DNA of 64,000 bases, from positions 1 through 64,000 of the forward strand of contig RDYP01000004.1 of NCBI GenBank assembly GCA_004293445.1, read 5' to 3'. The DNA is from Verrucomicrobiota bacterium. Its GTDB lineage: Bacteria > Verrucomicrobiota > Verrucomicrobiia > Verrucomicrobiales > Akkermansiaceae. The notes under the pieces are model-generated. The model saw nothing but the letters and a program-made list of their open reading frames with translations. It was not told the origin of the DNA and searched no databases. The position numbers and the translations under genes are program-made. Shown here in pieces: positions 37,876-56,595 of this stretch (within the stretch, counting starts at the first letter, position 1; each line of letters starts with the position of its first letter).

Positions 37876-37917
37876 GTTTTTCGTTTATTTCGTTGTTGAG
37901 AGGTATTGGGCGGATGA

Positions 37918-37950
37918 GACGCAAGACTTGAAGACGCAAGACTCAAGACC
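37918..37950. repeat. Left arm of cassette 1, heptad tandem units
   Basis: Four GAC-started units and a partial fifth in tandem. Reverse-complementary, with small gaps, to 38363-38403. It lies just upstream of ahcY and 5 bp past the stop codon of the inner gene. Confidence 0.85.
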
Positions 37951-37955
37951 AGAGA

Positions 37956-38342
37956 TTAGAAAAACCAGCCAGATACGATCTTGGTTACTCCACCTCCACC
38001 AAGGCGTTTGCGAAGGCCTTCGATCATAGACCCGATCTGTTTGGTTTCTTCAATCAGAGGATTGGCTGCATCCGCGCTGAATGAACCAGCACGGATCCCA
38101 AGGTAGAGCTGAGTGCGGAGCTCACCCACAGAACCCTTGGCAATCGCGAGGAATCGGCGGAATTCCCGGTCACTTTCCCGCTCGGCTCCTTCGGCAATGT
38201 TCGAAGGAACCGAAATGCAACTCCGAGCCATTTGATCCCGCAAAGCATAAAGCTTCACGGGTTCAATCAACTCGAGGACCGAGACGGCCAGCCGCGCACT
38301 TCGCTTCCAGACGTCCAATTCCTCAAAGTGATGCATCGCCAT
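37956..38342 (-). CDS. Four-helix-bundle (S23/IVS-type) protein, cassette 1
   Basis: 128 residues from the ATG at 38342; another ATG lies at 38336 and a TTG start at 38366 inside the arm is less likely. The FEELDVWKRS start, SIPSN-like SVPSNIAEGAERES and the REFRRFLAIAKGS helix are signatures of the four-helix-bundle family first found in 23S rRNA intervening sequences (TIGR02436). The pattern is of four amphipathic helices; there is no catalytic motif. Related proteins include the accessory Avd of diversity-generating retroelements, but no reverse transcriptase or template repeat is present here. It occupies nearly the whole cassette between the arms. Confidence 0.9.
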   Translation of the reverse strand: MAMHHFEELDVWKRSARLAVSVLELIEPVKLYALRDQMARSCISVPSNIAEGAERESDREFRRFLAIAKGSVGELRTQLYLGIRAGSFSADAANPLIEETKQIGSMIEGLRKRLGGGGVTKIVSGWFF

Positions 38343-38362
38343 CTCGTTTCTCCCGTCTTTCC

Positions 38363-38403
38363 TCAAGTCTTCCGTCTTGAGTCTTGCAGTCTTGGGTCTT
38401 CAG
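38363..38403. repeat. Right arm of cassette 1, heptad tandem units
   Basis: Tandem units TTNNGTC (TTCCGTC, TTGAGTC, TTGCAGTC, TTGGGTC) on the + strand, complementary to the left arm. The arm runs into the metK stop codon (38400-38402), so the insertion point is at the very end of metK. Confidence 0.85.
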
Positions 38404-52220: not shown

Positions 52221-53318
52221 ATGCCGCGGCCCGATCCGACCTCCGACCTTCAACAAGCCCTCAAGCAGCGCATTCTTGTGCTCGATGGCGCGATGGGCAC
52301 CACCATCCGCACCTACGGACTCAAGGAGCAGGACGCACGCGGCAGTCGCTTTTCCGACTCCCAAAAAGACCTGCTGAACAACGGCGACATCCTTTCCCTC
52401 ACCCGCCCGGACGTCATCGGCGACATCCACAAGCGCTTCTACGAAGCCGGTTCCGATATCTGCGAAACCAATACTTTTTCCGCGACCTCGATCGCTCAAA
52501 GCGAGTTCTTTGTCGATGATCCCCGCGAACACGGCGGCATCAAGGACCCGGAATTCTTCCAAAAGATCATCGACAGCGCCGAACTCCGCGACCTCGCCTG
52601 GGAACTCAATGTCGAATCCTCCCGCCTCTGCAGGAAATGGGCGGACGACATCGGCAGCGACACTGGCGTCCGACGCTACGTCGCCGGCGCGATCGGACCT
52701 CTCACCGTCTCTCTGAGCACCTCGCCCGATGCCAACGATGCCGGCTTCCGCACCGTAACTTTCGACCAAGTGAAAGAGGATTACAGCCGCCAGGTCCGCG
52801 CGCTGATCGAAGGCGGCTGCGACATTCTGATGGTCGAAACCATCTTCGACGCACTCAACGCCAAAGCTGCGCTGGTCGCCATCCAGGAAGTCTTCGAAGC
52901 GGATCAAGTCCGCCTGCCGATCATCGTCAGTGCCGCCGTCGGCCTCGGTGGCGAGACCATGATTTCCGCCCAGAAAGTGGAAGCGCTCTGGAACGCCGTC
53001 GCCCACGTCAACCCGCTTGCCGTCGGACTCAACTGCTCGCTTGGCCCCGACCTGATGAAGCCACACCTCGAGGAGTTGGCCAAGGTCGCCGCATCCCATA
53101 TTTCCTGCTATCCCAATGCCGGCCTGCCCAATCCACTCGCACCCACCGGCTTCGACCTCGAGCCCCAACACATGAACGCCTACATGAGGGAATTCGCCCT
53201 CGATGGTCTTCTCAACCTCGCCGGTGGCTGCTGTGGCAACACCCCCGAACACATCGCCGCCATCGCCGCGGCGATGAAAGGAGTGAGGCCGCGGGAGGTG
53301 CCGATGTTGGAGAATTGA
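52221..53318 (+). CDS. metH: Methionine synthase, homocysteine-binding half (MetH N-part)
   Basis: 365 residues, equal to the first module of E. coli MetH. It activates homocysteine on zinc: ligands Cys272 (GLNCSLG), Cys337 and Cys338 (GGCCGNT) are present. It ends at PREVPMLEN just where the linker to the folate module starts in full-length enzymes. The rest of the enzyme is encoded separately at 53830, with a four-helix-bundle cassette between. The two products probably assemble to one enzyme. A word shared with the metK operator lies 38 bp upstream (52176-52183). Confidence 0.93.
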   Translation: MPRPDPTSDLQQALKQRILVLDGAMGTTIRTYGLKEQDARGSRFSDSQKDLLNNGDILSLTRPDVIGDIHKRFYEAGSDICETNTFSATSIAQSEFFVDDPREHGGIKDPEFFQKIIDSAELRDLAWELNVESSRLCRKWADDIGSDTGVRRYVAGAIGPLTVSLSTSPDANDAGFRTVTFDQVKEDYSRQVRALIEGGCDILMVETIFDALNAKAALVAIQEVFEADQVRLPIIVSAAVGLGGETMISAQKVEALWNAVAHVNPLAVGLNCSLGPDLMKPHLEELAKVAASHISCYPNAGLPNPLAPTGFDLEPQHMNAYMREFALDGLLNLAGGCCGNTPEHIAAIAAAMKGVRPREVPMLEN

Positions 53319-53321
53319 GAA

Positions 53322-53358
53322 AACATCGAACATCGAACGTCCAACATTGAACGTCGAA
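53322..53358. repeat. Left arm of cassette 2
   Basis: Five 7-bp tandem units of type AACRTYS, then AA. The inner gene's ATG is the next base. Confidence 0.92.
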
Positions 53359-53736
53359 ATGGAGAGCCAGACGAACCGGACCTACGACCTTGAAGAGAGG
53401 CTTCTCTCTTATGGGGCCGCGATCATCGTGCTGACACGTTCGCTCTCATCAGACTACGCGGAACGTCACGTGGGAAATCAGTTGCTACGCTCGGGCACCG
53501 CATCTCTCTCCCATCACGGCGAAGCTCAAGGCGCGGAATCTCCGGCGGACTTCATCCACAAGCTGCGGCTCGCGCTGAAGGAGCTTCGCGAGGCAGAGCG
53601 GTGGCTGAAACTCATCGCCCGCGCCGGCTCGGGGCCTTCGAATCCAAATCTCAATCCGCTGCTCGACGAAACAGACCAGCTCATCCGAATCTTCGTCAGC
53701 AGCATCGCAACCGCCGAAAAACGCCGAAGCAGCTGA
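53359..53736 (+). CDS. Four-helix-bundle (S23/IVS-type) protein, cassette 2
   Basis: 125 residues from the ATG at 53359, directly after the left arm; a TTG at 53347 lies inside the arm and is unlikely. The NQLLRSGTASLSHHGEAQGAES segment and ADFIHKLRLALKELREAERWL helix are signatures of the four-helix-bundle IVS family. It differs from the cassette 1 protein (AQGAES type versus SNIAEGAE type), so the two genes belong to different branches. The distal 53 bp before the right arm are noncoding. There is no transposase in the cassette. Confidence 0.9.
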   Translation: MESQTNRTYDLEERLLSYGAAIIVLTRSLSSDYAERHVGNQLLRSGTASLSHHGEAQGAESPADFIHKLRLALKELREAERWLKLIARAGSGPSNPNLNPLLDETDQLIRIFVSSIATAEKRRSS

Positions 53737-53789
53737 AGGCTTCCCCTTGGGGGCTCGATGTTTCCAATCAGAATCTCAATCCTCTTCCC

Positions 53790-53826
53790 TTCGACGTTCC
53801 ATGTTGGATGTTCGATGTTCGATGTT
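53790..53826. repeat. Right arm of cassette 2
   Basis: Reverse complement of the left arm with two differences. The metH second-half ATG starts 3 bp after it. Confidence 0.92.
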
Positions 53827-53829
53827 CCC

Positions 53830-56595
53830 ATGACTTCCTTACCCCGCGTCCTCCGACTCTCCGGCTCCGAAGCCTACAACCACACGCCGGATAAAAACTT
53901 CCTGATGATCGGCGAGCGCACCAACGTGGCCGGTTCGCCGAAATTCGCAAAGCTGGTGCGCGAGGGAAAACTCGACGAGGCCCTCGAAATCGCCCGCCAA
54001 CAGGTGGAAAGCGGGGCAAACGTGATCGATATCTGCTTCGATGACGGCCTGATCGACGGCAAGGCCATGATGGCCCGTTTCCTCCAGCTGGTGCAAAGCG
54101 AGCCCTCCATCTCGAAGGTCCCGATCATGGTCGATTCTTCCAAATGGGAAATCATCGCCGAAGGCCTGAAATACCTGCAAGGCAAGGGCATCGTGAACTC
54201 GATCTCGCTCAAGGAGGGCGAGGAAAGGTTCATCGAGCAAGCCAAGCACATCCGACGCTACGGCGCCGCCACCGTCGTCATGGCCTTCGACGAAAACGGC
54301 CAGGCCGCCACCTACGACGAGAAAATCCGGATCTGCGAACGGGCCTACCGGGTGCTGGTCGACCAGGTCGGTTTCCCACCGGAAGACATCATCTTCGACC
54401 CCAACATCCTGACCGTCGCGACCGGCATCGAGGAGCACAACAACTACGCGCTCGACTTCATCAACGCGACTCGATGGATCAAAACCCATCTCCCCCACGC
54501 CAAGGTCTCTGGCGGAGTCTCCAACATTTCCTTCTCCTTCCGCGGCAACAATGTCGTCCGCGAGGCGATGCACTCCGCATTTCTCTATCACGCCACCCGC
54601 GCCGGGATGGACATGGGCATCGTCAACGCCGGCATGCTCGAGGTCTACGACGAGATCCCCAAGGAACTCCTCGAACACGTGGAGGATGTGCTGCTCAACC
54701 GACGCCCCGACGCCACCGAACGCATGCTCGACTTCGCCGAACGCTTCAAGGGCGTCGGAGGCAAGAAGATCGAGGAAGACCTGAGCTGGCGCGAGGAACC
54801 GGTCGAAAAACGACTCGAGCACGCCCTGCTCAAAGGCATCGACAAATTCATCGATGAAGACACCGAGGAGGCCCGCCTAAAATACGGCCGCCCCCTCAAG
54901 GTGATCGAAGGCCCACTGATGGACGGCATGGGCGTGGTCGGCGATCTCTTCGGTGCCGGAAAAATGTTCCTACCCCAAGTGGTGAAGTCGGCCCGCGTGA
55001 TGAAAAAAGCGGTCGCTTGGCTGACCCCGTTCATGGAGGCCGAAAAAGCGGAATTCCTTGCCGGAGACATCGCCGCGATCCTCGCCGAGAAACCCGGACT
55101 CAGCCACGACGATGCCATCGCCCTCGCCGGTCGCCGCCGCTCGGCAGGACGCTTCCTCATCGCCACGGTCAAGGGAGACGTGCACGATATCGGAAAAAAC
55201 ATCGTCGGCGTAGTCCTCGCCTGCAACGGCTTCGAAGTGACCGACATGGGCGTGATGGTCCCCTGCGACAAGATTCTCGCGAAAGCGAAGGAGATCGGTG
55301 CCGACGTGATCGGCTTGTCCGGACTCATCACCCCATCGCTCGACGAAATGATCAACGTCGCCAAGGAGATGGAGAAGGCCGGCTTCACCGTTCCGCTGCT
55401 GATCGGCGGCGCCACGACTTCCGCGACCCACACCGCGGTGAAAATCGCCCAACACTATTCCGGACCGGTCGTTCATGTGCTCGATGCCTCGCGCTCGGTG
55501 CCCGTCACCACTTCCCTCCTTTCGCCCGACCAAAAGGACGCCTTCATCGCCGACAACCACGAGAAGCATCGCAAGGCCCGAGAAGCCTTCACCGGCGGCC
55601 CGAAAAAGGAAATTGTCAGCATCGTCGAAGCCCGCGCCAAGGCCCGCCTCACCGACTGGTCCACCTACACGCCCCCAGTTCCGGAATTCACCGGCACCCG
55701 CGTGATCGCCAGCCAGTCGCTGCGCGAGCTCGCGGAATACATCGACTGGACGCCTTTCTTCCACGCCTGGGAACTGCGTGGCGTCTGGGACCGCGAGGCG
55801 GGCGTGCTCAAAACCAAGAACGAGGAAGGCGCAAAGGAGGCCGCTAAACTCCACGCCGAGGCACTCGAACTTCTAGAAAAAGTCATCGCCGAGAAACGCT
55901 TCACCGCCCGTGGCGTGTACGGCTTTTTCCCGGCGAACGCCGACGGCGATGACATCGTGGTCTGGAACGATGAATCCCGTACTTCGGAAAAGACCCGCTT
56001 CCACACCCTGCGCCAGCAGATCAAGAAGGAGTCCGGCAAACCAAACGAAGCGCTGTCCGACTACATCGCCCCCCAAGGCTGCGGCAAGGACTACGTCGGC
56101 GGATTCGTCGTCGGCATCCACGGCGCGGACGAATGGGCGGCGGAGCTGGAAGCCGCGCACGATCCCTACAACGCGATCATGGCCAAGGCCCTCGCCGACC
56201 GACTCGCAGAAGCCTTCGCCGAACTGCTCCACCACCGCGCCCGCGTCGCCTGGGGCTATGAGCGACCGAACGAATTCGGTGCCAACGAGCTGATCAAGGA
56301 ACTCTACCGCGGCATCCGCCCGGCCCCCGGCTACCCGGCACAGCCCGACCACACCGAAAAACCCATCCTGTTCGAGCTACTCGGCGCAGAGGAAGCCACC
56401 GATGTCGCACTGACCGAAAGCTGTGCGATGCATCCGGGAGCGGCCGTCAGCGGCCTTTATTTCAGCCACCCCGAAAGCCACTATTTTTCGATCTCCGAAA
56501 TCCAAAAGGACCAGATCGAGGACTACGCCCATCGCAAAGGCATGAGCGTTGCGGACGTTGAAAAATGGCTCGGACCCTGGCTCGGCTACGCCTGA
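53830..56595 (+). CDS. metH: Methionine synthase, folate/B12/reactivation half (MetH C-part)
   Basis: 921 residues. Equivalent to the remaining modules of MetH: pterin-binding barrel ([23 protein letters not shown]), cobalamin cap and B12 domain with cobalt ligand His452 in GDVHDIGKN, and the SAM-dependent reactivation domain ([12 protein letters not shown]). It makes methionine from homocysteine and methyl-tetrahydrofolate, together with the product of 52221-53318. The ATG at 53830 follows the cassette arm; the longer start at 53758 would encode the arm and is not used. RLSGSEAYN begins the family homology, only seven residues in. Confidence 0.95.

Follow-up and report, generated by a model that had tools for sequence, protein, structure and literature searches.

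The two halves of the split methionine synthase gene metH in the window (the whole stretch of DNA that was analysed, 64,000 nucleotides long) are separated by a cassette of 505 bp from arm to arm, which appears, by its sequence, to be a member of a widespread class of single-gene elements of about 0.5 kb with inverted arms of short tandem repeats. The comparisons described below suggest that it is a mobile cassette which rides on the transcript of its host, of the same kind as the intervening sequences (IVS) of rRNA genes, and whose arms would be iterated recognition sites; the probability of this reading is estimated at about 55%. The anatomy closely resembles that of the IVS known from rRNA genes, and the location between the genes of protein operons differs. 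No description of such cassettes in protein operons was found in the open-licence literature (subscription papers and bioRxiv being outside the scope of the search).

The cassette in the metH linker

The homocysteine half of the split enzyme, metH-N (52221..53318), matches PF02574 (S-methyl_trans, E=1.7e-75), and the folate/B12 half, metH-C (53830..56595), contains the Pterin_bind domain, two B12-binding domains and the activation domain (PF00809, PF02607, PF02310, PF02965 in Pfam). Both host genes, both arms and the cassette gene are on the + strand. The left arm (53322..53358) consists of tandem 7-mers and the right arm (53790..53826) of the same kind of repeats in inverted orientation, the two being complementary at 35 of 37 positions. 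The pairing extends inward to 45 nt at 89% identity (to 53366 on the left and from 53782 on the right). The arm pair has a local score of 32, whereas 4,950 random pairs of equally long stretches, taken 400-600 nt apart in the window, reach 18 at most; the 37-bp inverted arms announced by the original prediction are therefore real, and their sequence does read with a 7-bp period. As had also been noticed, one of the mismatches is a G-T on the + strand and becomes G-U in RNA; the other is a T-C.

The arms enclose a single gene of 125 aa (53359..53736), with an alternative in-frame start TTG at 53347. Its assignment to the four-helix family of the 23S IVS is borne out by the matches to PF05635 (S23, E=4e-10), which is the sole Pfam match of this gene, and to TIGR02436 ('four helix bundle protein', E=1e-18). 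The cassette fills the metH gap with margins of 3 bp, exactly as first described: TGA-GAA precedes the left arm at the stop of metH-N, and CCC-ATG follows the right arm at the start of metH-C. The proposed stem with the gene as its loop is recovered in the predicted RNA fold, where the minimum-energy structure and the centroid agree on an outer stem of 26+10+6 pairs; the minimum free energy is -207.7 kcal/mol (z=-5.87), and 0 of 100 shuffles are as good.

A promoter scan of the window stretch found 0 promoters where 0.1 would be expected, a result that weighs neither way. The possibility that the cassette is a self-splicing intron or belongs to another curated RNA family was set aside, as no Rfam match passes the cut-off in the region 53000-54100 (the single hit has E=0.44 and 18.5 bits, for a cut-off of 75). 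Upstream of its start, metH-C stays in open frame across the right arm as far as an ATG at 53758 (53758-53829), and a longer N-terminus of metH-C starting at this position is possible. The conservation of metH-C among relatives begins at 53830.

A class of cassettes with inverted arms

The class was defined with 129 S23 and 70 GxxExxY genes from 57 related genomes, among the matches listed. Regions beyond the given loci were fetched for 100 S23 and 40 GxxExxY genes, which is not every listed match, and elements with less than 250 nt in either flank were left out, as were duplicate copies. The search for like arms around other four-helix-bundle genes, suggested when the metH cassette was first described, found them in many operons: the score of the element's own flanks is at least 20 in 62/129 S23 and 43/70 GxxExxY elements, compared to 5/1,024 and 6/549, respectively, for swapped flanks. 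At the level of sequence, the inverted arms are shown to be specific to each element. For roughly half of the S23 genes, the arms score less than 20.

The counts of orientation, wobble, period and arm-protein similarity are restricted to elements with an arm score of at least 18 (75 S23 and 49 GxxExxY). The arms of the S23 cassettes have a period of 7 bp (the best lag is 7 or 14 in 64/75) and those of the GxxExxY cassettes a period of 8-10 bp (46/49). The median number of units in the left arm is 4.6 for S23 (array detected in 94/129) and 2.8 for GxxExxY (32/70), and the median cassette length is 491 and 513 bp, respectively. By eye, an outer motif close to AACC(G/A)C opens many GxxExxY arms, whatever the inner unit (L037, L097, L103, L231, L242 and L251).

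When both neighbours are called, 47 of 51 armed S23 cassettes and 28 of 30 armed GxxExxY cassettes (75/81 when pooled) are in sense and flanked on both sides by co-directional genes; without the arm filter, the counts are 83/88 and 42/42. Only 18 of 33 ordinary genes of the window, a small and incomplete control set, lie between co-directional neighbours (Fisher p=1e-4 for the excess of S23 and 6e-4 for that of GxxExxY). The median distance from the upstream stop to the arm is 4 bp for S23 (n=60) and 4.5 bp for GxxExxY (n=36), and that from the arm to the downstream start is 3.5 bp (n=40) and 10 bp (n=27). The Y1-transposase genes of these genomes failed as a control for the arms, since 19/28 themselves have inverted flanks, and in the orientation control both of their flanks were called in only 3/30. 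Rfam, applied to 12 S23 loci with unclear flanks, returned one tRNA and no rRNA.

A wider scan, with one genome per species and eight proteins of the window type as queries, returned at least 573 relatives. According to the record titles, the best 80 of these (at least 573) come from Verrucomicrobia, Lentisphaerae, Desulfobacterales, Planctomycetota, Bacteroidetes, Gemmatimonadota, Armatimonadota, Nitrospirae, Acidobacteria and others; 77 of the 80 named loci are usable and three have too little flank. Among these best 80, arms score at least 20 in 52/77 loci (20/606 with swapped flanks), and the best lag is 7 or 14 in 56 of the 58 loci with arms of at least 18. The upstream neighbour is co-directional in 29 of the 31 called, but both neighbours are so in only 15/22. 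Beyond the order, the constant feature is thus a co-directional gene upstream, and the full operon-junction rule is looser.

Host junctions and turnover

Host junctions were grouped by matching flanks on both sides, a requirement that favours conserved operons in the list; their identities are given by Pfam or NCBIfam. The recurrent junctions are metK-ahcY, pheS-pheT, nuoJ and further nuo genes, nuoF-nuoG, livG-livF, the gyrB/parE-gyrA/parC pair, the small chain of ribonucleotide reductase followed by an ATP-cone protein, and a class-III aminotransferase followed by an ornithine/aspartate carbamoyltransferase. The last two are, by our reading, nrdB-nrdA and argD-argF, and reading alone also places moxR-DUF58 among the hosts. 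One group (g10), whose left host had been considered floA-like, has no Pfam match and was dropped from the list. Six groups mix S23 and GxxExxY cassettes; the metH and pheS-pheT groups were checked locus by locus.

Turnover was counted at 30 pheS and 30 metK loci, of which 8 and 7, respectively, have no downstream partner within the locus. The 22 pheS-pheT junctions with the partner in reach comprise five S23 cassettes, one GxxExxY cassette, 13 short gaps (median 47 bp) and three long gaps without an S23 or GxxExxY gene. The 23 metK-ahcY junctions comprise eight S23 cassettes, 14 short gaps (median 46 bp) and one long gap. Taken together, 27 of the 45 junctions have a short gap and no cassette gene. 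Tandem 7-10-mers exceed shuffles in ten of the 27 short gaps; gene-less hairpins in the style of the cassettes are found in four of these ten (L388, L424, L426 and L433) and single repeat arrays in L392, L395, L397, L400 and L445. The loci compared show that, from genome to genome, a fixed junction may carry a cassette, arms without a gene or an empty gap. An element that comes and goes would be expected to leave such a mixture at one site: filled, without a gene, with a single arm, or empty.

Cassette proteins and their conservation

The S23 protein of metH is related by sequence to the PDB entry 2rld (E=4e-12), which contains five chains, and a homopentamer is cited for a solved relative, an S23-family protein of Xanthomonas, in PMC4990558. 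The structure model from the single sequence has four helices (mean pLDDT 60.5). The protein contains no recognised nuclease or transposase domain. The GxxExxY protein (TIGR04256 / PF13366 PDDEXK_3, E=6e-42) belongs to the PD-(D/E)XK superfamily, and its residues D58 and K70 (numbering of the trimmed alignment) are invariant in 70/70 sequences, which makes it plausible that it acts as a nuclease. It has no relative in the PDB at E<=0.1. No family of PADLOC-DB 2.0.0 matches either protein, so that they were not retained as catalogued or candidate anti-phage defence proteins. A viral origin of the cassettes was also rejected: of 50 pattern hits in viral contigs, none is a relative by tblastn.

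In 16 of 19 hand-picked pairs of close orthologues, the cassette genes have a dN/dS of 0.02-0.19, dS being saturated in the other three; purifying selection is thus shown for the pairs tested. Such selection, if it has long acted at one place, could also reflect a host function. In 17 orthologue pairs, the mean identity is 0.88 for the arms, 0.72 for the leader and trailer and 0.56 for shuffled arms, although single pairs depart from this order. Among the 15 pairs with a dS value, the arms are above the leader and trailer at dS >=0.8. The similarity of the arms weakly tracks that of the proteins (rho 0.16 and 0.20, p=0.001). In seven orthologous groups, the best complement of an arm is the other arm of the same element in 27 of 56 elements (about 7 by chance), but the own arm is not preferred in the pheS-pheT group; covariation of the arms inside orthologous groups thus falls short of what had been expected.

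Proposed mechanism and alternatives

According to the reading that we favour, that of a mobile cassette riding on the host transcript, the element would lack a promoter and would owe its expression to transcription that reads through from the host operon. Its arms would mark its ends and also act as repeated sites of recognition, either at the DNA level or as a protein-binding sequence, and would serve in its spread and upkeep. The S23 protein, pentameric in a solved relative, might bind four to five 7-mers, and the GxxExxY protein may do likewise on about three 9-mers. That the four to five heptads correspond to one unit per S23 subunit is a guess, based on the pentamer of the solved relative and on the four to five units per arm. 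Tight junctions would be favoured in the placement of the cassette, as an insertion there is transcribed and leaves the host genes intact. Cleavage of the 37-bp RNA stem by RNase III would then be a likely by-product that divides the host mRNA, and not the selected function. Observations that speak against this reading include the arms of about half of the S23 genes, which score below the threshold, the weak association between arms and protein, the 27 of 56 elements whose own arm is the best complement, the looser junction rule in the named loci (15/22) and the lack of a recognised nuclease or transposase domain in the S23 protein.

A broader proposal, which we make tentatively and at less than even odds, is that the S23 ring and the GxxExxY nuclease drive parallel, homing-like cassettes in the stop-start junctions of conserved operons, that these cassettes are recognised by their element-specific arms, and that the transcripts are cut between the subunits of one enzyme. 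If this is true, the long-known rRNA IVS would be a special case of a wider class, and pheS-pheT, nrdB-nrdA, the nuo genes, the gyrB-gyrA type, metK-ahcY and the split metH would be its colonised junctions. The rRNA IVS would then join a larger class that can be counted, in which the junctions are fixed, some sites are empty, either of two proteins is present and the arms can be recognised; this makes mobility, the recognition of arms by the protein and mRNA cutting directly testable. Such a class would also explain the annotations 'four helix bundle' and 'GxxExxY' inside conserved operons.

The most serious alternative to the mobile cassette is that the element acts as RNA, the arms being kept for RNase III excision from the operon mRNA, which would separate or stabilise the host cistrons, with the protein being secondary. 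The stem folds well in prediction, the sense position in junctions that are taken as transcribed is in keeping with this idea, and the IVS of Coxiella is a substrate of RNase III in vitro (PMC4990558); a stem like that of the cassettes, if transcribed, would probably be cut as well. If the stem were kept as RNA, however, the sense strand should show more G-U than A-C mismatches. The counts of G-T versus A-C arm mismatches are 62 versus 79 for S23 and 44 versus 54 for GxxExxY (28 versus 28 and 19 versus 23 for isolated mismatches), 93 versus 93 in the named loci among the best 80 of at least 573 relatives, and 199 versus 226 when pooled. There is no sense-strand excess of G-U in S23, GxxExxY or named loci; a strong preference is excluded by these counts, and a weak one is possible. 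The arms therefore resemble DNA ends or sites of recognition more than a stem preserved as RNA. The original idea of an IVS-like element in a protein-coding operon gains from the anatomy shared with the Coxiella IVS and from its recurrence in many operons, but the part according to which the stem is maintained as RNA is not supported by the mismatches. The strong conservation of the protein in the pairs tested and the 27 of 45 pheS-pheT and metK-ahcY junctions that are short and lack a cassette gene also argue against selection for excision, which we consider doubtful.

TRAP, which binds its repeats, is the model for another explanation, in which the S23 protein is a host-adapted regulator: its ring would bind mRNA heptads and regulate its own operon, the two inverted arms being two sites. 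The four to five units per arm, together with the pentamer of the solved relative cited in PMC4990558, are consistent with this explanation, and so are the strong purifying selection on the cassette genes and the conservation of the arms above the leader and trailer. It seems unlikely, however, given the frequent absence of the cassette, the gene-less arms and the exchange for an unrelated protein at one junction; besides, the second arm of a regulator need not be inverted. That the arms are neutral debris around an ordinary small gene, produced by slippage in replication and by template switching at hairpins, agrees with the absence of RNA-type compensation and with the repeat arrays found without a gene, but is very improbable considering that the arms are above leader and trailer at dS >=0.8 (15 pairs with dS), that the repeat period is family-specific and that arm similarity is linked to protein similarity.

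The split of metH

The homocysteine half of metH was matched in 54 of the 57 genomes, and 43 of these were used for the metH tree; ten of the 11 others have open frames of 1,176-1,724 aa and are, by that sign, fused, and the last one (G004) has a fragment. Of the 43 genomes of the order, 24 have a fused metH and 19 a split one, at the same linker. An S23 gene is present in one of the 19 split loci, namely that of the window. In six (L029, L033, L035, L036, L037 and L039), a GxxExxY gene lies between inverted arms that are quite different; three (L030, L031 and L034) keep what were read by eye as relics of arms, with no gene, and the remaining nine lack a cassette, their gaps being 5-52 bp long.

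On the tree, a single change accounts for the split (support 73/40, 76% of the bootstrap trees), so one old split fits best, with modest support. The original prediction had named many relatives with separate halves but no cassette as evidence that would speak against it. Nine of the 19 split loci are of this kind (gaps of 5-52 bp), and seven of these genomes branch outside the cassette-bearing clade, so that a tie between the cassette and the split is not supported: the split probably preceded the cassette, and the latter is probably not its cause. That the cassette itself split metH by insertion into the linker, as its location there and the 24 fused genes out of 43 might suggest, is disfavoured and hardly credible with a split that appears older on the tree, even if independent later losses of cassettes could weaken this argument.

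In a tree of 70 GxxExxY proteins, those linked to metH occur in two separate places, which is forced by well-supported branches; two arrivals of GxxExxY at metH, or instead a movement out of metH, are possible. The sister genomes G005 and G010 (support 100/99) carry different kinds of metH cassettes, and the junction hosts three different cassettes in all, the S23 one and two kinds of GxxExxY. The comparison by eye of empty and filled metH sites revealed no clear target site duplication.

Comparison with known systems

The Coxiella IVS is described in PMC4990558 as having an S23p ORF in sense, a 28-bp terminal stem, and tandem heptamers of varying number upstream of the ORF. The metH cassette shares with the 23S rRNA IVS a PF05635/S23p gene in sense with the host transcript (judged here from gene orientation) and terminal inverted repeats that are nearly complementary and could pair into a long stem (35/37 here), and with the Coxiella element in particular the tandem heptamers beside the ORF (the period is 7 class-wide here) and a similar size (428 nt versus 505 bp). 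The rRNA IVS sits in helix 9, 25 or 45 of 23S rRNA, whereas the cassette is between the metH halves. The Coxiella ORF is reported in the same article to be decaying and probably not expressed, in contrast to the conserved cassette genes. This 2016 paper cites earlier ideas of IVS as mobile elements, and calls the function and origin of rRNA IVS and of the S23 protein unclear.

The Avd proteins of diversity-generating retroelements (DGR) are, by the account given in PMC10053308, of a related four-helix family. The genome of the window (97% complete) differs in having no match to the reverse transcriptase family PF00078, and no part of a DGR was seen beside the metH cassette. An Avd-like dependence on a reverse transcriptase acting in trans is not needed, since the host genome has no PF00078 match and S23 genes are found in other genomes that have none either, such as G013 with 14 PF05635 matches among those listed.

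The GxxExxY cassettes resemble the S23 cassettes in their inverted tandem-repeat arms, sense orientation and junctions, but have an unrelated protein and a period of 8-10 instead of 7. REP/RAYT and MITE-like repeats also have inverted repeats and gene-less derivatives; in contrast, the metH cassette has no Y1 transposase, and cassette arms vary from element to element. An element of the Y1-transposase type (REP/IS200) was rejected because the metH cassette gene matches PF05635 alone in Pfam. The TAACTGA repeats of Beggiatoaceae are likewise tandem heptamers between genes, but are mostly direct arrays of a single unit and, in the account of PMC4679880, are described without an enclosed gene. 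In Flavobacterium columnare, a table of PMC5524665 gives in a row a guanylate kinase, a four helix bundle protein and a nicotinate adenylyltransferase; the guanylate kinase-flanked four helix bundle gene appears there under phage elements.

Other S23 genes and arrays in the same genome

The genome of the window (G000, 3.35 Mb) contains three PF05635 genes. The second one is also in the window, in a cassette on the - strand which occupies the 524 bp gap between metK and ahcY, both identified by Pfam (37876..38399, L417); its S23 match (38019-38324) is in sense, and its heptads are of a different, AAGAC-type family. The third gene adjoins a GGGGTCA array. The S23 protein of metH, used as a query, misses both of these genes, which suggests that the metH cassette is not a freshly amplified copy.

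Heptads of the GAACATC type are found elsewhere in this genome at C1:406069 and C28:281411. At the first place (C1:406069-406099, L005-L007), one GAACATC arm and apparent remains of an S23 gene were seen by eye beside gene-less arms in the GxxExxY style, ahead of an ORF that resembles an ABC ATPase; this spot may perhaps represent two decayed cassettes. At the second (C28:281411-281448, L008), a GAACATC-type array of about five units, with neither S23 gene nor second arm, lies in a long open frame which, by eye, looks like uvrA.
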